Below, piece after piece: positions 13,051 to 27,294 of a DNA stretch of 37,831 nucleotides. Source of the stretch: Candidatus Saccharicenans sp. Its GTDB lineage: Bacteria > Acidobacteriota > Aminicenantia > Aminicenantales > Saccharicenantaceae. The notes beneath the pieces were generated by a model. The model saw nothing but the letters and a program-made list of their open reading frames with translations, had not been told where the DNA came from and searched no databases. Within the stretch, counting starts at the first letter, position 1. The number at the start of each line of letters is the position of its first letter. The position numbers were made by a program, and so were the translations under genes. The DNA is taken from positions 1-37,831 of the forward strand of contig JAGOPD010000012.1 in assembly GCA_017992175.1 (NCBI GenBank). The letters are read 5' to 3'.

Positions 13051-14517
13051 ATGGATCAAGCTGAATGTTTAAAAGTTGCTTTTATAACTCCGGAGATGGC
13101 TCCCCTGGCCAAGACAGGTGGCCTGGCCGATGTGACCGGAGCTTTGCCCAAATATCTCAGTCGCCTGGGCCAGCTGGAGGTTACGGTCTGGCTGCCATTT
13201 TACCGGGAAATAAAAAATAAAAATCTTGAACTGAAAACAGTTGCTTCTAACCTGAAGCTGAACGTTTTTCCAGCTGAAAAAACCTTTTCAATTCTCGAGT
13301 ATCAGGCGGAAGGCTTTAAAGTTTATCTGATAGAGAACGACTTTTATTTCGGCCGTGACTATCTTTACGGCACTCCCGAGGGTGATTACCCTGATAATGG
13401 CCAGCGTTTTGCTTTTTTTAGCCTGGCAGTTTTAACCGGGTTTAAAGTAATCAACTGGCCTCCTGATTTAATCCACGCTCACGACTGGCAAGCGGCCCTG
13501 ACTTTAGCCTATCTAAAGCATTCTCTGGCTGGGGACAGCTTTTACCAGAAAACCAGGTCGCTTTTTACCATTCATAACCTGGCCTATCAGGGACTTTTCC
13601 CGCCCGACATTCTGAATCAGGCCGGCCTGCCTGGCTATCTTTTTAATCCGGAGGATCTGGAATTCTATGGTCGGGTTAACTTTTTAAAAGCCGGGCTGCT
13701 TTATTCACAAGCCATCAGCACAGTCAGCCCGACTTACAGCCGGGAGATTCAATCAGCCGAATTTGGCTTCGGTCTGGATGGAGTCTTAAGAAAAAGATCT
13801 GACCGCTTGTTTGGAATTTTGAATGGCATCGACTATCAGGAATGGGACCCGGCGACTGATCCAGCCCTGCCGGCCCATTACTCGTCCCGGGCTCCAGCTG
13901 GAAAATTCCTCTGCCGCCAGGAACTTCTCCGCTCATTCAATTTTGAAGCGGAGAGCCAACGGCCGGTGGTCGGACTGGTTTCGCGTTTGGCCGGGCAAAA
14001 AGGATTCGATCTCCTGGTCAAAAGCCTGGATGAAATATTAAAAAGGGACCTCTACTTGATTATCCTGGGAACGGGTGAAAAACCAATTCAGGAGATGCTG
14101 AGTCAGGCTGCCAGGAAATATCCGGAGAGATTCGGCCTGAAAATTGCTTTTGATGACCGGCTGGCCAGGCTAATTTATGCCGGTAGCGATTTTTTCCTTA
14201 TTCCCTCCCGCTATGAGCCCTGCGGGCTGACCCAGATGTATAGCCTGAGGTACGGAACTATTCCTGTAGTTCGAAGCACTGGCGGTTTAAAAGATAGCAT
14301 CCAGGAATTTGATCCAGACCGGCTGGAAGGCAATGGCTTCAAGTTTGAAGACTATGAGACCCAGGCTTTACTGGCTGCTCTTGACCGGGCTCTCAGTTTT
14401 TACCAACGAAAACCTTTCTGGTCAAGACTGAAGAATAATGCTTTTAAGAGTGATTTTTCCTGGGAAAAAGCGGCTGCCAATTACTATGAGCTTTATTTAA
14501 AGATACTCAGCTTTTAG
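13051..14517 (+). CDS. glgA: Glycogen synthase (ADP-glucose type, GT5)
   Basis: Transfers glucose from ADP-glucose to the non-reducing end of alpha-1,4-glucan. Seen: the KTGGL substrate loop at residues 21-25, HAHDWQ in the N-terminal Rossmann domain, LNGID at the domain junction, and the C-terminal signature SRYEPCGLTQMYSLRYGTIP with STGGL. Length (488 aa) is typical of GlgA. GAGGT lies 7 bases before the ATG. Co-transcribed with the CBM9-like gene. Its 3-prime end overlaps galT by 11 bases in convergent orientation, so the two transcripts are antisense there and no terminator fits between them. Its substrate is supplied by glgC at 17287-18471. Confidence 0.95.
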   Translation: MDQAECLKVAFITPEMAPLAKTGGLADVTGALPKYLSRLGQLEVTVWLPFYREIKNKNLELKTVASNLKLNVFPAEKTFSILEYQAEGFKVYLIENDFYFGRDYLYGTPEGDYPDNGQRFAFFSLAVLTGFKVINWPPDLIHAHDWQAALTLAYLKHSLAGDSFYQKTRSLFTIHNLAYQGLFPPDILNQAGLPGYLFNPEDLEFYGRVNFLKAGLLYSQAISTVSPTYSREIQSAEFGFGLDGVLRKRSDRLFGILNGIDYQEWDPATDPALPAHYSSRAPAGKFLCRQELLRSFNFEAESQRPVVGLVSRLAGQKGFDLLVKSLDEILKRDLYLIILGTGEKPIQEMLSQAARKYPERFGLKIAFDDRLARLIYAGSDFFLIPSRYEPCGLTQMYSLRYGTIPVVRSTGGLKDSIQEFDPDRLEGNGFKFEDYETQALLAALDRALSFYQRKPFWSRLKNNAFKSDFSWEKAAANYYELYLKILSF

Positions 14518-15550
14518 GTTGTTCGTTTTTTCTGAGGTAGTCAGCAGCTGATTCTGGCGGGACAGGGTTGATATAGAAACCGGTCCCCAGTTCAAACCCG
14601 GCCACCTTGGTCAGGATCGGTAAGATTTCTAAATGCCAGTGATAATAATAATCGATTCCCGGCCAGGCCTTTTCAGCCACCTGGGGATTAGGAGCCTGGT
14701 GAAAGACCAGATTGAAGGGCGGGTCAGACAGTTGAGCTTTTAACCGGCTGAGAGCCTGCTTTAGAGCTTCAACTAAGGAAGTGATTTCTTCGTCAGCTAT
14801 CTGACGGAAAAAGGCAGAGTGCCTTTTAGGCATAATGGCCATCTCAAAGGGAAACCTGGAAGCAAAAGGTGTCATAACCACGAAAGACTCATTCTCAAAA
14901 ACCAGTCTTTCGCCTGATTGCAGCTCTTCCCGCAACTGGCGGCAGATAGCACATTCCCGGAAGGAATTCCGGAACAATCTTTCAGCACCATAAACTTCTT
15001 CTTTGATCCTCTTGGGTACAATGGGGGTAGCAATGACCTGAGAATGCGGGTGGGAAAGTGAAGCCCCGGCTTCCTGGCCTTTGTTTTTGAAAATCTGGAC
15101 ATATTGATAATGTAACTGCTGCTCAATGACGATGGTCCGCTGGCGGTAAACCTTAATGATTTCGGCTAAATGATCAAGAGGCAAATCAACCATCTCCACG
15201 TTATGATCCGGGTTTTCAATTATTACCTCATGGATACCAACCCCGGCCATCCATTGATAGCTGCCTCTGGTTTTTCTGGGAGGAAGCGAACCAGGAGTCA
15301 GAGCCGGAAATTTATTGGGAACTACTCTGGTCTTCCAGCCTGGCTGATCTGGCTTAGAGTCATTATCTCTGATCGAATAGACTTCGGGTGGCGTTTTGGC
15401 TTCATTCCCCGGACAGAAAGGACAAAAAGCCAGATTTTCTCTTCTGATTTCAGCCTGGGCTGAGGGCCGGAAGTCATCCGGCCGGCGGCTCCTTTCAGTC
15501 GAAATAATTACCCACCTTCCGGTTAACATATCTTTTCTTAATTCTGGCAT
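14507..15550 (-). CDS. galT: Galactose-1-phosphate uridylyltransferase
   Basis: Leloir-pathway enzyme exchanging UDP between glucose-1-P and galactose-1-P. Seen: zinc cysteines CPFC at residues 43-46, NPDHNVEM, the active-site HPHSQ at 167-171 (nucleophile H169, as in the family HPH) and the C-terminal YHWHLEILP. I chose ATG 15550 (347 aa), because GGAAG stands 7 bases before it. The frame also opens at TTG 15580, without a site. It follows the response-regulator gene by 43 bases and probably closes the glucan operon, feeding galactose carbon into glucose-1-P, the substrate of GlgC. Confidence 0.93.
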   Translation of the reverse strand: MPELRKDMLTGRWVIISTERSRRPDDFRPSAQAEIRRENLAFCPFCPGNEAKTPPEVYSIRDNDSKPDQPGWKTRVVPNKFPALTPGSLPPRKTRGSYQWMAGVGIHEVIIENPDHNVEMVDLPLDHLAEIIKVYRQRTIVIEQQLHYQYVQIFKNKGQEAGASLSHPHSQVIATPIVPKRIKEEVYGAERLFRNSFRECAICRQLREELQSGERLVFENESFVVMTPFASRFPFEMAIMPKRHSAFFRQIADEEITSLVEALKQALSRLKAQLSDPPFNLVFHQAPNPQVAEKAWPGIDYYYHWHLEILPILTKVAGFELGTGFYINPVPPESAADYLRKNEQPKS

Positions 15551-15593
15551 GACTTTACTTCCTTTTAGAATAATAACCAAAGATAACTGAGCT

Positions 15594-15947
15594 TTAGCTG
15601 CCGATTAGTTCTTTGATCTTAGCCTTTAATTCCTCAAGAGATGAAGATTTGATAACGTAAGCATCGGCTGCCCAGGTCATAAAATCATCTTTATAACTCT
15701 GATAAGCGGTATTGATGATAATTGGAATGTCCTTGCGCAGACCCATAACGTTAGCAATAAGTTCTATACCGTCTTTTCCTGGCATTCTGATATCAGTGAT
15801 AATAAGATCAAACTCTTCCTTCTGGACCAGTTCCAGAGCTGAATCGGCATCATGGGCTACTACCATCGTATAGCCTTCATTTTTTAATTCTTCCTCATAA
15901 AGCAAGCTTAAAGCCAGATCATCTTCAATCAGGAGTATTTTTTTCAT
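15594..15947 (-). CDS. Receiver-only response regulator
   Basis: 117 aa, a single CheY-like receiver domain with no output domain. Seen: acidic pair E8-D9-D10, phosphoacceptor D52 (ITDIRMPG), T80 and K100. All catalytic residues are present, so it should be phosphorylated. It overlaps the upstream histidine-kinase gene by the four bases ATGA, which implies translational coupling and a cognate pair. Without a DNA-binding domain it must act by protein contact or in a phosphorelay. The target is unknown; its position between glgC/kinase and galT makes a glucan-metabolism partner plausible. Confidence 0.9.
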   Translation of the reverse strand: MKKILLIEDDLALSLLYEEELKNEGYTMVVAHDADSALELVQKEEFDLIITDIRMPGKDGIELIANVMGLRKDIPIIINTAYQSYKDDFMTWAADAYVIKSSSLEELKAKIKELIGS

Positions 15948-17290
15948 GACTGTCCCCTTTCCCGGACTTTGAAATATAGCTTAAACATGGTCCCGCGGCC
16001 GGGCTTGCTCTGAACTTCCAGTTTTCCGTCGCAGGTATCAATGATCCGCTTGACAAAAAGCAGCCCCAGCCCGATGCCATTTTCTTTAGTCGTATAAAAA
16101 GGAGTGAACATTTTATCCTGGCTTTTCTCATCCAGGCCGGGCCCGGAATCTTTGATAATGATCAAAACATATTTATTGTTATATGGCCTGGCTCGCAAAT
16201 AAACCTTGCCTCCTTCCGGTGTAAAATCAAGGGCATTATCCAGCAAATTGACCACCGCCTCTTCAAAATAGACCGGGTCACACTGAATTAAGGGCAGCTC
16301 CGGAGCCAATTTCAAGGAGATAGCCTTCCTGGCTGCTTTAAGTTTTATGTCCGGTCTTTCCACCAAATTCAACAGAATCGGTTTGACATCGACCGGCTGA
16401 AGTTCCCGGATAGTTATTTTTAAAAAATGACTTAATTTATAAATTATATCTTCGAGGTGCTTAACCTGTTCCTGGATGATATTCAGATTGCGGCGGCAAC
16501 GGTCGGGCTGACAGGGGCTGGCCAGCATTTGCTGGGTAAAACCGCCGATTGCCACGATCGGATTCCTGAGCTGGTGAGAAACGAAAGCAGCCATCTCACC
16601 CAGGGCAGCCATCTTTTCCATTTCAACCACTTTTTTGTAGAGGTTGGTGGTATAAATATAGTTGCCGGCCAGGAGGGCACACAACCTGGCCAGTTCGATA
16701 TCATTAAGGTCAATTGGAGCGTGGGTAATTCCTTTGTCCACCACAATCTCTCCCAGAACCTCATCCTGAGCAACCAGGGGCAAACAAAGGAAACTGTCAA
16801 CCTGAATAAAGTTCATAAAATTTGGATCTACCGCCGGCTCTTTTCCGGCTTCATTAACCAGGATGATTTCCTTGTTCAGAGCAGCTAAAGCCGGCAAGGG
16901 CAAAGACTGATCTTCCAGATCATAAATGAAGTGCTTGAGTTTAGGCTGGACATCTTTGACCATCCTGGTGACCAGGTCACGGTTATAGGCTACTATTTCT
17001 GCATAACCAATGCCAGGTGAAGACAGCATAGTCCAGATAGCCTCAGCTTCTTCCGGGGATCTCGGTCCTAACCAGGTAGTGGCTTTTAACCTCATTCCAT
17101 CTTTCAAGAATAACATAGCCCGGTTAAATCCAATCCCTGAACCTGCAGTTAAAGCAGTCAGAATGACCAGGAGGTTATCTTCCAGTGAAAAAGGCTGGAA
17201 AAAGCTTTGAGCTATGATTGACAGCAAGACAAATTCTTTGGGAGTATCAGGATTAAAATTATTCGGCTGCAAGCTGTATCTTTCGATCAT
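15944..17290 (-). CDS. Soluble GAF-domain sensor histidine kinase
   Basis: 448-aa kinase without membrane segments or signal peptide, so it senses a cytosolic cue. Seen: a GAF-like sensor at about residues 38-210, the dimerisation helix with H-box phospho-acceptor H239 (AAFVSHQLRNPI), N-box N352 (NLLDNALDF), G1 box DSGPGL at 381-386 and G2 region NGIGLGLLFVKRII. Its start overlaps the glgC stop by four bases (ATGA), and its stop overlaps the response-regulator start in the same way. glgC, kinase and regulator should therefore be made together in fixed ratio. Ligand unknown. GAF cysteines are few, with no haem motif that I can see. Confidence 0.92.
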   Translation of the reverse strand: MIERYSLQPNNFNPDTPKEFVLLSIIAQSFFQPFSLEDNLLVILTALTAGSGIGFNRAMLFLKDGMRLKATTWLGPRSPEEAEAIWTMLSSPGIGYAEIVAYNRDLVTRMVKDVQPKLKHFIYDLEDQSLPLPALAALNKEIILVNEAGKEPAVDPNFMNFIQVDSFLCLPLVAQDEVLGEIVVDKGITHAPIDLNDIELARLCALLAGNYIYTTNLYKKVVEMEKMAALGEMAAFVSHQLRNPIVAIGGFTQQMLASPCQPDRCRRNLNIIQEQVKHLEDIIYKLSHFLKITIRELQPVDVKPILLNLVERPDIKLKAARKAISLKLAPELPLIQCDPVYFEEAVVNLLDNALDFTPEGGKVYLRARPYNNKYVLIIIKDSGPGLDEKSQDKMFTPFYTTKENGIGLGLLFVKRIIDTCDGKLEVQSKPGRGTMFKLYFKVRERGQS

Positions 17291-18471
17291 TCGAGCCTCC
17301 AGCCTTTAGGAATAACCCTTATGCCACCCGGGCTGACTTTGAAATTACTTCTGTCTTTTTCGAGTTCAAAGCCAACTTCAAAAGCTTCCGGGATGATCAC
17401 CTGTTTATCAATTATTGACTGGCGGACCCTGGCTCCTTTTTTAATGACCGTTCCCTCAAGGATTATTGAATTCTCTACCTCTACCTCATCTTCTATCCTG
17501 ACTCCTGGAGATAGAATAGAATTCTTAATCTGGCCGCCAAGAACCTGACAGCCCGAGCCAATAATCGAACTGGAAATTCCTCCAGCCAGAAAAAAAGATG
17601 ATGGATACTGTGGTTTATACGTCCGGATAGGCCAGTCAGCCTCATTCAGGCGGAAAGGAGGTTCAGGAGCTAAAAAATCCAGGTTAGCCTGCCAGTAGGC
17701 ATCTATGGTTCCGATATCCTGCCAGTAATCTTCATAGATACAGGCATAAGTTTTATGACGCCTGATCAGCTCTGGAATGACGTCGTGTCCAAAATCATGG
17801 GTTGATTTGGGGTTTTTGGCATCAGCAATTAAAGATCTGACCAGGACCGGAGTCTCGAACATGTAGACTCCCATCGAAATAAGTGAAACCCGGGGAGACC
17901 AGGGCAGGCCAGAGGGTTTTTTGGGTTTTTCGCTGAAGCCGGTAATCAGCTGGTTATCATCTACGCTAATCACCCCGAAGCGGCTGGCTTCCTCTACCGG
18001 ACAGGTGTGGGCCATAACTACCGCTTCTGCCTGTTTGTCAAGGAAAAACTTTAGCAATTGGCGGTAATCAGCCCGATAAACGTGATCCCCGGAAAGAACC
18101 AGAATGATATCCGGGTTTTCCTGCTGAATGGTGTAAATATTCTGAAAAACAGCATCGGCTGTTCCTTCGTACCAATGCTCGCTTAACCGTCCCTGGGCTG
18201 GCAGGGAGATTATAAATTCGTTACTTTCTGGATGGAAAATGCTCCAGCCCTGACGGATATGCCTTTCGAGGGAAAGTGACTTATATTGAGTTAACAGGGC
18301 TATTTTTCTAAAACCGGAATTCAGGGAGTTAGACAGGCTGAAGTCAATTATCCGGTAACTCCCGGCAAAAGGAACAGAGGGCTTGGCCCGGTCTTTGGTC
18401 AGAGGATAAAGCCTCTCCCCTTTTCCTCCGCATAAGATCATGACCAGAATTTTTTTATATGATGTTTCCAT
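17287..18471 (-). CDS. glgC: Glucose-1-phosphate adenylyltransferase
   Basis: Makes ADP-glucose from glucose-1-P and ATP, the committed step of bacterial glycogen synthesis. Seen: the nucleotide loop GGKGERLYPLT (about residues 15-25), KPSVPFAGSYRIIDF, FSEKPKKP, YWQDIGTIDAYW and a C-terminal left-handed beta-helix with hexapeptide repeats. Start ATG 18471 (394 aa) has GGGAGGT 11 bases upstream. It overlaps the branching-enzyme gene by 17 bases. A longer frame to 18513 lies inside that gene and has no site. Its 4-base overlap with the histidine-kinase gene is unusual for glg operons. Confidence 0.95.
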   Translation of the reverse strand: METSYKKILVMILCGGKGERLYPLTKDRAKPSVPFAGSYRIIDFSLSNSLNSGFRKIALLTQYKSLSLERHIRQGWSIFHPESNEFIISLPAQGRLSEHWYEGTADAVFQNIYTIQQENPDIILVLSGDHVYRADYRQLLKFFLDKQAEAVVMAHTCPVEEASRFGVISVDDNQLITGFSEKPKKPSGLPWSPRVSLISMGVYMFETPVLVRSLIADAKNPKSTHDFGHDVIPELIRRHKTYACIYEDYWQDIGTIDAYWQANLDFLAPEPPFRLNEADWPIRTYKPQYPSSFFLAGGISSSIIGSGCQVLGGQIKNSILSPGVRIEDEVEVENSIILEGTVIKKGARVRQSIIDKQVIIPEAFEVGFELEKDRSNFKVSPGGIRVIPKGWRLE

Positions 18472-20140
18472 TGGGAAGCAAGACCTCCCTGAACAAAGAA
18501 TCTTCTGACTCAATTTCTTCTAGCCAGAAAAAATCTTCAGGAGTTAAATTACCGGTCCTGGACAACCAGTTAAGTAATTTCATAGACCGTTCAAAATGGA
18601 GACTGGCCCTGGTCTCAGCATAATCCCCGGCGGTCATGGTAGAAATCAAAAAAGGCCAATCCGAACTTTCCAGTAGAAATTTTTCCTGACATAAAAGCTT
18701 CAGCAGCCTCAAATCTAAACTCCGGCCCGATGCTCCATTTTCCCAGAGCGGCCAGAATTTCTTTTCCAGTTCATAAATTCTCGACCAGATCCAGGCGGTC
18801 TTATCATTTAACCAGATCCAGTGGAACCCGCCTTCACCCCAGGAACCCTCAGGCAGGGAGACTAAAATCCCGGGCGGTACAGCCTCAAGGCAGCTGGAGG
18901 CTGTGGCCAGTTTAATGTTCGATTCCGGAGCCGACAGCTTTTTTATGACCTGGTATAACCATTCAGGTCCTTCAAACCACCAGTGCCCGAATAGTTCAGT
19001 ATCATATAGCGAAGTGATTATTCCCTGTTCTTGGTCCTTTAAAACTTCGGCCAGGAGCCAGACAAAATGACGGGCATGCTCTTCGACTCTGGCCGCAGCT
19101 ATCTCTGTTTCGTAAGGCAGCTTATCAGCCAGATCTGAGGAGGAAGAGGTTATCCGCCAGTAGCGCAATCCTCCCGGAAAATGCTTTTTATGAAATTCCA
19201 GATAGTAACTGTCTCCCGGGTAGCCGGAATGCCGGCTCCAGACTTGCTGGCCGGTAATTTCATCCCTGGCCATGAAGGCTACTCCCGCCGGATAGGTCAG
19301 ATAAGGCAAATAAGGAGTCTGTGGCCTGACTGGACCCGATTCATAATTTTCTTTATACCTGTCCCACAAATGCTGGAGAGCCGGAAATCTTTCTAAATAT
19401 ACTCCTCTGGCTTCTCCACCCCGCAATAAGTGATTATCAACAAAGAAATAGTTAAGATTTTCCTGACTTAAAATCTGGTCAAGGCCAAGCCGGTCATAAG
19501 GTCCAGAGCTGCCCAGAGGCGGCTGCCAGCCATAGGCTGGACGGTAAGCACATTCCGGCAGCCAGAAACCAGCCGGTTTTCTCCCGAAATATTTTTCATA
19601 AATGAACCTGCCCTGCTGGACCTGATGTCTGACACTCTGATCGCTGGCCAGCAGGGGCAGATAACCATGAGTAGCGGCTGAAGTTATAATTTCAATTGAA
19701 CCGGTTTCTTGAAAATGACCAAAAGCTGAAATCAGATCAGAATGGAACTCATCAAGAAACAGATGGTAAATATTTTCGTACCACTTCCGCCAGTACAGAG
19801 CCAGATTCATTAACTGCTTTTCGCCCGTCCGCTGGAAATAAAGATAATCACTGGCCGAAGCTTCCAGTTTCATGGTCAAATAATCGAGGAAACTTTGTCT
19901 GAAAGCCTGGCTGCTGAGCTGCTCTACCAGCACCGGGGTTAAACTGATGGTCAGTCCCGCCCGGAGGCCCTCTGTTTCGAGGCGAAGCAGAACTTCGAGT
20001 AGCGGCACATAAGTTTCAGCCGCTGCCTCAAATAGCCAGTCCGTACCATGGGGCCAGGTACCGTGGCCCATCACATAAGGAATGTGGCTGTGCAGGACAA
20101 AACAAAGCAATTTGTTATTCTTATTCAGTTTTTCAGCCAT
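18455..20140 (-). CDS. GH57 1,4-alpha-glucan branching enzyme
   Basis: Makes alpha-1,6 branches in glucan, replacing the GH13 GlgB that is absent from this window. Seen: HSHIPYV at the N-terminus followed by GTWPHGTDWLFEAAAETY, the nucleophile E196 in WLPECAYRP, acid/base D380 in YDTELFGHWW, and a C-terminal helical DUF1957-type domain. These positions fit characterised archaeal and Thermus GH57 branching enzymes (near 183 and 354) with small insertions. No signal peptide. I prefer ATG 20140 (561 aa); AGAAGG lies very close to it and TTG 20155 is the alternative. Heads the branching-enzyme, glgC, kinase, regulator and galT operon. Confidence 0.92.
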   Translation of the reverse strand: MAEKLNKNNKLLCFVLHSHIPYVMGHGTWPHGTDWLFEAAAETYVPLLEVLLRLETEGLRAGLTISLTPVLVEQLSSQAFRQSFLDYLTMKLEASASDYLYFQRTGEKQLMNLALYWRKWYENIYHLFLDEFHSDLISAFGHFQETGSIEIITSAATHGYLPLLASDQSVRHQVQQGRFIYEKYFGRKPAGFWLPECAYRPAYGWQPPLGSSGPYDRLGLDQILSQENLNYFFVDNHLLRGGEARGVYLERFPALQHLWDRYKENYESGPVRPQTPYLPYLTYPAGVAFMARDEITGQQVWSRHSGYPGDSYYLEFHKKHFPGGLRYWRITSSSSDLADKLPYETEIAAARVEEHARHFVWLLAEVLKDQEQGIITSLYDTELFGHWWFEGPEWLYQVIKKLSAPESNIKLATASSCLEAVPPGILVSLPEGSWGEGGFHWIWLNDKTAWIWSRIYELEKKFWPLWENGASGRSLDLRLLKLLCQEKFLLESSDWPFLISTMTAGDYAETRASLHFERSMKLLNWLSRTGNLTPEDFFWLEEIESEDSLFREVLLPNGNII

Positions 20141-20166
20141 ACCTTCTCTGAGCAATATTTTTTTTT

Positions 20167-20231: not shown

Positions 20232-22199
20232 TCAGTCTTCAGATAGCCCTTGGTTAAGAGTCAAGTAGAGTAAACTGGTTTGCCTGGAAGCCAGTTTTAA
20301 CCTCCAGAGAAAATGGAAACTAATTCCCTGAGTGATGATTTCAAACTCCTTTTCTGATTGAGACACCGTTTTGACCGGAAAATCCCAGATTTCAGCTGAA
20401 GCCACCGCCGCCAGGTTTAACTGCCAGCCGGGAATCTCCAGCCTGTTGGGTTTGATCTGATATTGATCCTCAAACAGGGCCAGATTCCATTCTGAACTAA
20501 AAGAAAAACTCAGGTCAGCTTCTCCTCTGTTTTCTATTTCCCAGGCGAAAAGAATTGAATTGCGGCCAGGTCTGATGATCTTTTTAATTTTAATTCTGGC
20601 CTGACTGCCTTTCAGATTGACTTCATCTTCTCTTTCCAGGACCAGACTGTCTTCTTCCAGCCTGGCCTGATATTGCCTGCCGATAAAATTTTCAGCCTCC
20701 TGGTAATAAGTCTTTTCATACTCTTCCCGGTTAATATCAACCGGAAAAATCCTGTCCAGAAAAGAATGGCGCTGGTAGCTATCAAAAATCAGCCAGCGCT
20801 GAGCTTCAGCCGGTAAAACCCGGTTAACCTCATGAATTGACTTAGCTTCACCGGCCTGTCCCCCGCTGGTTGAATACAGATGATAAAATTCCTGTCGCCT
20901 GGTGAGGACATCAGTCAGATTAACACCTTCAAAACGGTCATCAATTTCAATTACCGAACCGCCAGCGGCAGGTTTTACCCAGACAAAAAAGGCCGGTGTC
21001 CTAAGTTCATATTCGTCCTGGCCGTCCAGGTCAAAATCTGACTTTTCCCAGCCGCTTTCAAATGGCAATTTGAGCTCAGCAGAAATAAGCTGGCTGGAGA
21101 CTGCCCGCCTCAGATGAGGCAGGTATAATCCGCCGAAGACTCCGTGCCAGTAAGCATCATTACATTGAGCCCGGTAAAGGTCCTGGCTGGCCTCTTCCGC
21201 CTGGTTCTTATCAATTTCAGCGGCCACCTGAAGTGCCCGGCAGCGCAGTTGATGGCTTTCAGGATATTTCAGGTCAAAATCCCGGAATTGTCCTCCTCTT
21301 AGAAAAAGCCGGCTGTCTTCGGGCAAACTGGTTTTTAACCGGATGAATTCAGCCTGCCTGGCTGGCGGCAGAACCCATTCCATCATCTCCTCATAAGAGG
21401 CTGGCGGCAGGTAACCCCGCCCCAGGGCCGGAGTCTGGTTCATAAAAGCTGAAAAGGACAACATCTCCACCTGGTTTGATTCAAGATACTCCAGGAAAGT
21501 CTTCAACCAGCCCTGTTCATAAACCCATTTATTGGTTCCGGGCCACAGTCCGAACTTCTCCCCATCATCGCCAATAATGGCCACTTTTCCGCCCTGGTTA
21601 TCTATTTTCCGGAAATAAGAATCAATCTCTTCCAGACTTCGAAATGGGATCAAATAACGCAATTTTTTATCAATGGGGAAAATACCCAGACTCAGGCCTT
21701 CATCCTCAGTCAGATAATAGCCATAAATATTTTCCAGGCCAGCATAGTGAAAATGTTCTTCATCGAGAAGCGTATAACTGAAACCGGCCCGGTGGAGGAA
21801 GCTGGCCAGCTGAGGCTCCCAGACCCTTTCTGCCAGCCAGAGTCCTGCTGGCCTCACGCCAAATTGCTCCTGTAAGAAGTCGTTCATCAACCTTATCTGA
21901 GCCTGGCGGTCTTTTTCGGGAATCTGGGTCAGGACCGGCTCATAAAACCCGCCGCCCAGAAGCTCAACCTGGCCGGATTTAACCAGCTGCCTGACCAGTT
22001 CCAGTCCTTCCGGGTGTTTATCAAGCATAAACTCCCATAAAAAGCCGGTGAAGTGGAGGGCAAATTTAAAACCGGGGTACTGGCTGGCCAGTTGCAGGAA
22101 AGGCCAATAGGCCTGGGAAAAAGCCTGCTCAAACACATGGGTAAAGTTCCCGAGAGGCTGATGATTATGAACAGCGAAAAGAAATTTAACTTTATCCAT
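20232..22199 (-). CDS. GH57 4-alpha-glucanotransferase / alpha-amylase-like enzyme
   Basis: Retaining GH57 enzyme that moves or hydrolyses alpha-1,4-glucan segments. Seen: AVHNHQPLGNF at the N-terminus, nucleophile E124 in WLAERVWEP and acid/base aspartate in GDDGEKFGLWP (D211/D212). The positions match the Thermococcus litoralis glucanotransferase (E123, D214). The C-terminal half is a beta-rich DUF1925/DUF1926-type region. 655 aa, no signal peptide. The open frame runs to 22388, but residues before MDKVKFLF lie inside the neighbouring gene; ATG 22199 has GAGGGG three bases ahead. It overlaps the upstream GH57 gene by 8 bases. Confidence 0.92.
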   Translation of the reverse strand: MDKVKFLFAVHNHQPLGNFTHVFEQAFSQAYWPFLQLASQYPGFKFALHFTGFLWEFMLDKHPEGLELVRQLVKSGQVELLGGGFYEPVLTQIPEKDRQAQIRLMNDFLQEQFGVRPAGLWLAERVWEPQLASFLHRAGFSYTLLDEEHFHYAGLENIYGYYLTEDEGLSLGIFPIDKKLRYLIPFRSLEEIDSYFRKIDNQGGKVAIIGDDGEKFGLWPGTNKWVYEQGWLKTFLEYLESNQVEMLSFSAFMNQTPALGRGYLPPASYEEMMEWVLPPARQAEFIRLKTSLPEDSRLFLRGGQFRDFDLKYPESHQLRCRALQVAAEIDKNQAEEASQDLYRAQCNDAYWHGVFGGLYLPHLRRAVSSQLISAELKLPFESGWEKSDFDLDGQDEYELRTPAFFVWVKPAAGGSVIEIDDRFEGVNLTDVLTRRQEFYHLYSTSGGQAGEAKSIHEVNRVLPAEAQRWLIFDSYQRHSFLDRIFPVDINREEYEKTYYQEAENFIGRQYQARLEEDSLVLEREDEVNLKGSQARIKIKKIIRPGRNSILFAWEIENRGEADLSFSFSSEWNLALFEDQYQIKPNRLEIPGWQLNLAAVASAEIWDFPVKTVSQSEKEFEIITQGISFHFLWRLKLASRQTSLLYLTLNQGLSED

Positions 22200-23523
22200 T
22201 TTCCCCTCTTTGCTCACTGGCTTGCTGAAGATAAGCCAGAAACAAAGTCTCAAATTCTCTTTCTTCTGTTTCTCCTGCCCACCAGAACCAGTCAGAGCCC
22301 TCAGCCACGGCCAATGGTCTGGAAAATCCGTATTTGGCCCTGGATTCAGATAAAAGTTCCCAGGCCTTGACTTTATCTGGATGGCCAACCCATTTAAAAA
22401 AATCTCCCATCCAGCTGCCAGCCGGCAGGTTGAGACTCTTTTTTATTCTGTCTCGGGCCAGATAGTCAGAAGGCAGGCCGGGCTGAACCAATGGACTGGC
22501 TTTTATCCTGGTAAAGAGCAGCCGTAAAAAGTCAACTCCATTGTTGGCGTAAGCGCCCCAGGGATTTTCTCCATCAAGAATAATGGAACAAATGGCCTCC
22601 TCTCCGGCAATTCTGGCTCTGGCTTCCAGTCTTCTCAGGAAGTCAGCAACTGCCAGTTCGGCTGGCCAGCGCTGATACTCAAACCCAATTAAATCTGACA
22701 GCTCCCGGTCTCTGAAAAGAATAGCCGTTCCTCCGCACTGATATGGGTGATAAAGAAGACCCGGATCAGGTCCAGCCTTGAGGCTCTTCCATAAAATATG
22801 CTCATCGGTGAAGGTCAGGCTAAAACCGGCCGAAGCTATTTCTTGACAGGCCGCCTGGCTTAAAGCTCCTTCAGAAGGCCAGAGCCCGGCCGGAGCAAAA
22901 CCAAAAAGCTGATGGAAATATTCCCTGGCTTCCTGAAGCTGCCAGCGGGCATCTTCCCTGTATTTAAAATCAGGCAAGCCAGAGGCTTCAGGGCTGGCCT
23001 GGTTCAGGTCGATTAGCAATGGCAAAAGAGGATGATAATAGGGAGAAACCGTGAGCTCGATGATTTTTTTCCGGTAGAGACGCTGGAAATAGTTAAACAG
23101 GTCAGAAAGGATTTGTTGCCTCAGGTTAAGCAGCTCTCTTTTATCCTTTTTATCAGGCAGGAGCAAAGGTGAAAAGAAACTGCGCAATACTTTATCCTGA
23201 AGCTCTCGCCCCGAAGCTCCCTGCGCCTCTTTGGGGAAAAATCTTTTTAATCTCAAGATGTCTTCTTCCGATAAATCATCAGCTGATCGGGTCAGGGAAG
23301 CAAGAACCGGATCGGAGGCCAGCTGATTCTGGTAATCTTTAATCTGCTCAAGCAAACAAGGAACCAGGTTGATGGTGCAGGGGAATTCATTCTCCTCAAT
23401 CAATTTAAGCATCTGCCAGTAATTTTTGGTCGTGTGATAATTCACCCAGGGCAAAATAGTTTGCCCCGACTTGGGAAGGCGGTAAATTGGCTGATGAAAA
23501 TGCCAGAGAAAGTTAACTAACAT
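22192..23523 (-). CDS. GH57 amylopullulanase-like hydrolase
   Basis: Third GH57 enzyme, of the amylopullulanase-like/alpha-amylase branch. Seen: N-terminal WHFHQPIY, nucleophile E218 in LWPSEGAL, acid/base D317 in LDGENPWGAY, and the conserved tail AEGSDWFWWAGE. 443 aa means it is just the catalytic module, without the SLH or other extracellular modules of secreted amylopullulanases. There is no signal peptide, so it likely debranches or hydrolyses intracellular glucan. AAGGA lies 8 bases before ATG 23523. Only two bases separate it from the M28 peptidase gene upstream. Confidence 0.88.
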   Translation of the reverse strand: MLVNFLWHFHQPIYRLPKSGQTILPWVNYHTTKNYWQMLKLIEENEFPCTINLVPCLLEQIKDYQNQLASDPVLASLTRSADDLSEEDILRLKRFFPKEAQGASGRELQDKVLRSFFSPLLLPDKKDKRELLNLRQQILSDLFNYFQRLYRKKIIELTVSPYYHPLLPLLIDLNQASPEASGLPDFKYREDARWQLQEAREYFHQLFGFAPAGLWPSEGALSQAACQEIASAGFSLTFTDEHILWKSLKAGPDPGLLYHPYQCGGTAILFRDRELSDLIGFEYQRWPAELAVADFLRRLEARARIAGEEAICSIILDGENPWGAYANNGVDFLRLLFTRIKASPLVQPGLPSDYLARDRIKKSLNLPAGSWMGDFFKWVGHPDKVKAWELLSESRAKYGFSRPLAVAEGSDWFWWAGETEEREFETLFLAYLQQASEQRGENG

Positions 23524-24944: not shown

Positions 24945-25400
24945 TCAATTCCCGATATCATTTTTGGGGTCAGATTCTTTCTTCTGGTCTTTATTCTTAA
25001 AAAAGAGCCACAAATTCTTTCCTTCCTGATTCCTGTCCTTCAAGCGGATCAAGCTGTATATTCCATTTAGTTTTTGGCCGGACAGGTAAATTTCCAGCTT
25101 ATTTTCAGTTTTGTTCAGCAGTTGATAAAAACCTTTGTCCCAGGTTTCGACTCGGCCGGCCCCATACTGCCCTTCAGGAATCAGACCTTCGAATTTTTCA
25201 TAACCGAGGGGATGGTCTTCGACTTCAATGGCCAGCCTTTTCTCCCCGGACCTGGCCGGCGGCTCTTTGGGCACAGCCCAGCTTCTTAAGACGCCATTAT
25301 CTTCAAGCCTTAAATCGTAATGAAGATGGGAAGCCGAGTGCTTTTGAATGACATAGATAAATTTTTTATTCTTACCTGGTTTAGACTGATTAGACAACAT
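24945..25400 (-). CDS. Stand-alone LigD 3-prime-phosphoesterase domain protein
   Basis: Small Mn-dependent end-healing domain, normally the N-terminal part of the NHEJ ligase LigD, here a free 151-aa protein. Seen: QKHSASHLHYDLRLE at residues 19-33 giving H21, H27, D29 and R31, then WAVPKEPP and EDHPLGYEKFEG (H63), GQYGAG and WDKG. These are the known active-site positions of the family. No polymerase or ligase domain and no ku gene lie in the window. ATG 25400 has no clear Shine-Dalgarno. It sits 28 bases after the AICAR-transformylase gene. Free copies may act in repair of 3-prime-phosphate or ribonucleotide ends; this is inferred from the family. Confidence 0.9.
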   Translation of the reverse strand: MLSNQSKPGKNKKFIYVIQKHSASHLHYDLRLEDNGVLRSWAVPKEPPARSGEKRLAIEVEDHPLGYEKFEGLIPEGQYGAGRVETWDKGFYQLLNKTENKLEIYLSGQKLNGIYSLIRLKDRNQEGKNLWLFFKNKDQKKESDPKNDIGN

Positions 25401-25428: not shown

Positions 25429-26511
25429 TTAACGGTGAAGGAAGCATCTTTCACAATCTATCTCACCCGGTCTTCTCGTAACCATCATGACCAGGCCAAG
25501 TTCATCAGCCCGGTTGATGACTTCCTGATCTTTTATAGAACCGAGAGGATAAATTATGCCCGTAATGCCGCTTCGGGCCGCTAATTCCACTACATCCGGG
25601 AAAGGCATATAGGCATCTGAAGCCATAACGCAACCCTCAGAACCGTAACCGCGAGCTGACAGCCGAATGGCATCCTCAGCCGCATCAATCCGGCTTCTCT
25701 GCCCCGAGCCTATTCCATGAATCTTATCTTCGGTGCCGATAATGATAGCATTTGATCTGGTAAAACAGGCCACTGCCCAGGTTAATAAGGCGGCTTTGAG
25801 CTGGCTGCCGGTAGGCTTCTTTTTAGAAACCACATCAATAAAGTCAGGGGAAACTATTCTTGAATCAAATCTCTTCTGGATAAGCAATCCTCCTGCCACC
25901 CGTTTAAACTCCAGCCCGTTGTCTAAGGCAGGTTCCTGGAGCGCCGCTCCCATCCTGACCACCCTAAGGACTTTTCTACTGCTCAGGATATTTAAGGCTT
26001 CAGGAGTGAAATCCGGGGCATAGACCACCTCGATATTTCTAGCGCTTTCCACTAACAAAGTAGCCAGCTCCTGGCCAATAATCGTATTAAAAACATCAAC
26101 GCTGCCAAAATTGGATAGAGGATCTGTCTGCCAGGCTTTCTGGAAAGCCTCAAGACTGTCTTCACCAATGGCTACTCCGCTTGGCATTTCATGTTTGATA
26201 ATGACGGCTATTGATTTTCCAGGAAAAATGCTGGCCAGCTTTCTGGCCAGTCTCTGGCCGAGATCCATATCGCCTACATTGATGTAGCTCAGGCCCTTTG
26301 TTCCCTCCTGAATGACCTCCAGGCTGGCCAGATTGGGGCCGGAAGCACCTTCTTCTTGATAAAAAGCGGCTGGATAACCAGGGTTTTCTCCATAACGCAT
26401 TGACAGTTTTTTGATAAAATGACTGTCACCGAAGGTTAAGGTTTCCGGAAAATCTTCACTGGTTTTTGTCTGATATTGGCTTCGGGCAGTTCTTTCTTTT
26501 TTTTGTTCCAT
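25429..26511 (-). CDS. Stand-alone AICAR transformylase (PurH2-type)
   Basis: Formylates AICAR to FAICAR with 10-formyl-THF, step nine of purine synthesis. It contains only the C-terminal half of bifunctional PurH. Seen: RYGENPGYPAAFY at about 39-51, catalytic K106-H107 in IIKHEMPSGVA (usual form KHANPCGVA), DPLSNFGSV, SDAYMPFPDVVE and the final HR. The N-terminal IMP cyclohydrolase (MGS-like) domain is absent. That activity is supplied by the purO gene just upstream, two bases away. The tail before the final HR has an insertion with two cysteines (CERC). GGAGG stands 10 bases before ATG 26511, within the end of purO. A minor homologue with altered substrate use cannot be ruled out. Confidence 0.87.
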   Translation of the reverse strand: MEQKKERTARSQYQTKTSEDFPETLTFGDSHFIKKLSMRYGENPGYPAAFYQEEGASGPNLASLEVIQEGTKGLSYINVGDMDLGQRLARKLASIFPGKSIAVIIKHEMPSGVAIGEDSLEAFQKAWQTDPLSNFGSVDVFNTIIGQELATLLVESARNIEVVYAPDFTPEALNILSSRKVLRVVRMGAALQEPALDNGLEFKRVAGGLLIQKRFDSRIVSPDFIDVVSKKKPTGSQLKAALLTWAVACFTRSNAIIIGTEDKIHGIGSGQRSRIDAAEDAIRLSARGYGSEGCVMASDAYMPFPDVVELAARSGITGIIYPLGSIKDQEVINRADELGLVMMVTRRPGEIDCERCFLHR

Positions 26512-26513
26512 AA

Positions 26514-27248
26514 CTAAGCATCCTCCCGGTTGATAATTTTGACCTGCTGAAGCTCCAGGCTGCCAGCCGAAGCTGTTAGCCCGGCTACAGACACCCGTAA
26601 GTCCTTCTTACCGGTTTCAGGTTTTAATGATTCATAGATGCTGCTGACTAGCTCATCAGCCCCGCCATCAGGAAATTCGAGAGAAGCAGGTTCGCCAAAA
26701 AATGAGGGGACAGGGTCAGTGTTTATACCCATATAAGTCATAATCAGCCAGCCTTTTCCGGGGACCAGCGGCAACTCAAAAAATTCTCTTAATACCTGGC
26801 CAAACTCGCCCCTCTTAATCAGACTGAGTCCGAGATTAAATCCGCCGGCGAAAGCCAGGCTGATTCTCGGGGTGTAAATAGGTTCATCAGGTTCATACTT
26901 CCAGTCTTTGAGAGCATGGACCAGAGCTAAAACCGGTTCTTTGGCGGTATCCATTGCCCTGAGGACATCCAGGGTTTGCTTGCCATTAGAGGCAGCCAGT
27001 CCACGCTGACTGAACAAAATAGCCGGGTAAATCAGCAGATCGGGATTGCCCATAACTATCAATTGAGGGTCGGTTGGCTCAACCCAGATGCCATTTTCTC
27101 TTTTAACCATCCGCCTGGCCTGACTGGCCGGTGAACGCCCGGTAATGCCATAGGCCAGGAAAACATCATCGGAGTCTCGTGACTGACCGCCGATGATAAA
27201 CCTGCCTGGATATTCCAGGCCAGAAAGAAAGTTTCTGGCAGTTTCCAT
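26514..27248 (-). CDS. purO: PurO-type IMP cyclohydrolase
   Basis: Closes FAICAR to IMP, the last step of purine synthesis. Seen: the archaeal IMP-cyclohydrolase pattern with YPGRFIIGG, GITGRSPASQARR at about residues 36-48 (ATG numbering), and the conserved middle and C-terminal blocks (YTPRISLAF, PGKGWLIMTYMG). I chose ATG 27248 (244 aa), as AAGGTG precedes it; the longer frame from 27287 has no site. PurO is best known from archaea. Pairing with a one-domain AICAR transformylase replaces bifunctional PurH. First gene of the run, with its own promoter. Confidence 0.85.
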   Translation of the reverse strand: METARNFLSGLEYPGRFIIGGQSRDSDDVFLAYGITGRSPASQARRMVKRENGIWVEPTDPQLIVMGNPDLLIYPAILFSQRGLAASNGKQTLDVLRAMDTAKEPVLALVHALKDWKYEPDEPIYTPRISLAFAGGFNLGLSLIKRGEFGQVLREFFELPLVPGKGWLIMTYMGINTDPVPSFFGEPASLEFPDGGADELVSSIYESLKPETGKKDLRVSVAGLTASAGSLELQQVKIINREDA

Positions 27249-27266
27249 GTGACACCTTTGATTTTT

Positions 27267-27294
27267 ACTATAGCAGAAAGTTAGCAACAGTTAA
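27267..27294 (-). promoter_or_regulatory. Promoter for purO
   Basis: Minus strand: TTAACT (27289-27294), a 16-base spacer, TATAGT (27267-27272). The -35 overlaps the left arm of the inverted repeat at 27285-27308. Leader about 12-15 bases including the AAGGTG site. Confidence 0.45.

Follow-up and report, generated by a model that had tools for sequence, protein, structure and literature searches.

A soluble GAF-type sensor kinase and a stand-alone receiver linked by gene order to glucan synthesis in Aminicenantes and beyond

Results

Gene organisation of the locus

The window, by which we mean the whole stretch of 37,831 nucleotides analysed here (Candidatus Saccharicenans sp., contig JAGOPD010000012.1), carries on its minus strand a run of genes read in one direction: two GH57 genes, a branching enzyme gene, glgC, a histidine kinase gene (HK), a receiver gene (REC) and galT. 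The first GH57 gene (22192-23523; PF03065) is followed by one of the alpha-amylase/4-alpha-glucanotransferase type (20232-22199; PF03065, PF09094 and PF09095), the start of which, inferred from the sequence, is probably 22199 (MDKVKF), giving the two genes a probable 8-base overlap (22192-22199). Next come the GH57 1,4-alpha-glucan branching enzyme (18455-20155; PF03065 and PF09210) and glgC, encoding glucose-1-phosphate adenylyltransferase (17287-18471, with its ATG at 18471 and its stop at 17287), the product of which passes the TIGR02091 equivalog cut-off (435.7 vs 424.9 bits). HK (15944-17290) encodes a protein of 448 aa and REC (15594-15947) one of 117 aa. Downstream of REC lies a galT-like gene (14507-15580; TIGR00209 over cut-off), a frequent neighbour of HK and REC, and convergent with it is glgA on the plus strand (13051-14517; TIGR02095, over the NCBIfam cut-off).

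The initial annotation had described glgC, HK and REC as joined by two ATGA overlaps, and glgC as overlapping the branching enzyme gene by 17 bases; the coordinates bear this out, with four shared bases at the glgC/HK junction (17287-17290) and four at the HK/REC junction (15944-15947). It had also suggested that the two regulatory proteins are made in stoichiometry with GlgC, which such overlaps cannot show. Shine-Dalgarno-like sequences (GGAGG and AAGGGG, one each) lie just upstream of HK and REC, with GGAGG preceding the HK start, so coupled translation is allowed by the overlaps but not required, and stoichiometry cannot be read from them. No chemotaxis genes were seen among the predicted genes of the window, as judged from their sequences and, for part of them, from Pfam, in agreement with the kinase not being part of a chemotaxis module.

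Elsewhere on the minus strand, a gene for an AICARFT domain protein (25429-26511; PF01808) adjoins one for an IMP cyclohydrolase-like protein (26514-27287; PF07826), so that the last two purine steps are apparently split into separate genes, and a stand-alone LigD 3'-phosphoesterase domain (PF13298) is encoded at 24945-25400.

A cytosolic sensor and an output-less receiver

Pfam places GAF, HisKA and HATPase_c domains in HK, all over their cut-offs, and Response_reg alone over cut-off in REC (PF00072, 6.7e-22). No membrane segment was found in HK, the highest 19-residue Kyte-Doolittle mean being 1.41, and the earlier description of a soluble sensor paired with an output-less receiver is thus upheld. 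In the AlphaFold model, residues 1-218 of HK form a GAF fold (mean pLDDT 86) that matches known GAF folds such as 3ci6 (TM 0.74 by target), at an identity so low that no ligand can be read from the fold search; the full-length protein gave chiefly kinase-core matches among the 50 best.

In sequence comparison with the PDB, HK and REC alike matched the ThkA/TrrA complex of Thermotoga maritima best (3A0R; 1.8e-25 for REC against 3a0r_B). As the ThkA/TrrA pairing requires, a stand-alone receiver, here with the motif WAADxYVxKSxxxxELK, adjoins a HisKA kinase, and the WAADxYVxKS part of this motif also occurs in TrrA. The likeness has its bounds: the match spans only residues 215-430 of HK, and the ThkA sensor is a PAS domain, whereas that of HK is GAF by Pfam and by the folds that its model matches.

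REC carries E8, D9, D52, T80 and K100. The codon of the phospho-acceptor D52 lies at 15792-15794 (minus strand); D52 is invariant in the orthologue alignment, and E8/D8, D9, D52, S/T80 and K100 are kept in the orthologues and relatives examined. In HK, the phospho-accepting H239 and the ATP-binding boxes are invariant among orthologues, as is N243, which occupies the Thr/Asn phosphatase position at +4 from H239.

A fixed glutamine beside the phospho-accepting histidine

The claim that HK has all its catalytic boxes holds for H239 and the ATP-binding boxes but fails at the residue after the histidine. The core of the H box (16571-16576, minus strand) consists of H239 (16574-16576) and Q240 (CAG, 16571-16573), where Glu or Asp would be usual. 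Glutamine occupies this position in all 39 aligned HK orthologues and in 23/23 distinct H-box contexts; being common to one clade, it counts as a single event. Glu or Asp was found there in 57 of 61 other kinases of the fetched loci, in all six further HisKA kinases detected in the genome to which the window belongs, and, as Glu, in ThkA. With no acidic residue after the phospho-accepting histidine, we file HK as a kinase homologue with putative kinase activity.

Laboratory mutants offer a guide to what the substitution might mean. In Myxococcus CrdS, replacement of E372 by A, D, G or Q abolished kinase activity and left phosphatase activity intact, N375 at +4 was required for the latter, and NtrB E140Q had phenotypes like those of the CrdS mutants (Willett and Kirby, PMC3510030). 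CrdS E372Q and NtrB E140Q share with HK a Gln after the phospho-accepting histidine and an Asn at +4; they differ in being made in the laboratory, as opposed to a natural fixed state, and their homology to HK lies in the HisKA domain. The change from Glu to Asp inactivated CrdS although Asp is common at this position, so the effect of the residue depends on its context.

Conservation within the Aminicenantes

HK is present in all 19 genomes of the genus, the other 18 copies being 67-96% identical to that of the window. Across the class, orthologues of HK were found in 48 of 142 genomes, distributed over six families (f1 and f3 to f7) of one order, and orthologues of REC in 46 of 142, every one of them HK-positive; in the two HK-positive genomes lacking REC the HK match is incomplete. 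A chance or single-genome arrangement is rejected by this spread. The adjacency of GlgC, kinase and receiver, when searched for across genomes, recurred widely: a close glgC adjoins HK in 44 of the 48 HK-positive genomes, that is, in all positive genomes of f1, f5, f6 and f7. The 4-base overlap of glgC with HK, conserved in these four families, is present in all examined loci but one, the branching enzyme gene overlaps glgC by 17 bases wherever both are present, and HK overlaps REC by 4 bases in most loci. Overlaps that recur across families in this way point to more than chance.

Families f3 and f4 show a different order (GH57 genes, branching enzyme, HK, REC, galT), with no glgC in between; their genomes hold a distant GlgC-like gene elsewhere, the sole glgC-type match found there. 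In the kinase tree f3 is nested in f7 (100/99) and f4 is joined to f5 (91/96), from which the simplest reading is that glgC was probably lost while the HK-REC pair was kept. HK is missing from two genomes with a close glgC, G099 and G105. Relatives of glgC at 46-48% identity occur without the pair at L150 (f11) and L151 (f9).

Relatives linked to glucan genes in other lineages

Beyond the Aminicenantes, GAF-type kinases with TrrA-like receivers lie beside glucan genes in four other Acidobacteriota families, in the orders GH57-galT-glgA-HK-REC-glgC, galT-HK-REC-glgC, glgA-HK-REC-glgC and HK-REC-GH57-galT; at L146-L148 glgC directly follows REC. An apparent GlgA-HK fusion in L146 (a 1209-aa frame) was rejected, the two matches being in different frames.

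In a second phylum (that of genome G491), glucan genes occur in 12 of 20 GAF-HK neighbourhoods, typically as galT-glgA-HK-REC, as against none of 19 control neighbourhoods, around kinases with a match in the core alone (Fisher P = 4.5e-5). One locus drawn as a control, L194, proved to be GAF-type and was moved to the GAF-HK set, raising the count to 13/21 (P = 1.9e-5); for both P values the loci are phylogenetically non-independent. No glucan gene was seen at eight of the 20 GAF-HK loci, some of which lie at contig ends, and five glucan-linked loci had no TrrA-like receiver within the fetched stretch. All 13 linked loci contain galT, 10 contain glgA and one contains glgC. The conserved link is with glucan synthesis as a whole, and specificity for GlgC is not supported.

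Discussion

Our preferred reading, held with moderate confidence, is that HK and REC form a cytosolic two-component switch for the glycogen/glucan pathway, distantly related to ThkA/TrrA and, in the Aminicenantes, with a sensor biased towards phosphatase activity. A metabolite or redox cue would bind the GAF domain and set the phosphorylation of REC. Having no output domain, REC may act through protein contact on an enzyme encoded alongside it, be it GlgA, GlgC or GalT, and not on GlgC alone. The face of the receiver is conserved in loci with and without glgC, which suggests a partner besides or instead of GlgC.

In the Aminicenantes, the invariant change from Glu/Asp to Gln beside the phospho-accepting histidine suggests that the sensor is chiefly a receiver phosphatase. 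REC would then be phosphorylated by acetyl phosphate or by another kinase, with the GAF domain governing removal of the phosphate, and glucan storage would thereby be tied to carbon overflow. Of the 19 genomes of the genus, 18 encode acetate kinase, which makes acetyl phosphate a possible donor. Against a phosphatase bias, a kinase-dead sensor need not keep H239 and the ATP-binding boxes, although phosphatase activity may use both. The stricter version, in which the Aminicenantes have a natural, fixed, kinase-deficient sensor serving solely as a GAF-gated phosphatase, and REC phosphorylated by acetyl phosphate directly regulates glucan-synthesis enzymes, seems to us improbable.

The alternative that survives best, though we consider it rather unlikely, is that REC is a phosphorelay intermediate or acts on a transcription factor encoded elsewhere, the glucan genes being controlled at transcription. 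Spo0F and similar receiver-only proteins work as relay intermediates, and Spo0F is among the PDB matches of REC. DNA-binding two-component regulators of glgC expression also exist, Francisella BfpR counting glgC among its regulated genes (PMC7082314). However, the gene run contains neither a phosphotransfer protein nor a second regulator, so a relay would need one elsewhere. BfpR resembles the present case in placing glycogen synthesis under two-component control and differs from it in binding DNA and in having no output-less receiver within the glgC operon (PMC7082314).

The initial annotation favoured a circuit specific to GlgC and made in a fixed ratio with it, which we now regard as unlikely. 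The glgC/HK overlap conserved in f1, f5, f6 and f7, together with the placement of glgC directly after REC at L146-L148, would fit such a circuit, but the pair is kept in f3 and f4 without a close glgC, its neighbours in the second phylum are mostly galT and glgA, with glgC nearby in a single linked locus, and G099 and G105 keep a close glgC without HK. ATGA overlaps being a frequent feature of bacterial operons, HK and REC might also be mere passengers serving an unrelated process; this is very unlikely, as their linkage reappears across phyla with the genes reordered, none of the control kinases shows it, and the pair outlives the loss of the neighbouring glgC.

Two-component systems are mostly known for acting on DNA or motors. 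If REC does regulate glucan-synthesis enzymes directly, the switch would be one that addresses a metabolic enzyme instead of DNA or motility. A pair whose gene order binds it to glycogen synthesis in two or more phyla, and that persists where the neighbouring glgC is gone, is a tangible candidate for regulating a storage pathway directly. Among the open-access papers searched, no such system combining glgC or glycogen with receivers was described. The fixed glutamine, in turn, offers a natural test of a rule on kinase and phosphatase residues drawn from laboratory mutants. As a separate observation, the glucan-linked HK of another Acidobacteriota family (L149:5596-7269, minus strand) has Met after the histidine (HMIKNP), a further case in which the acidic residue is gone.
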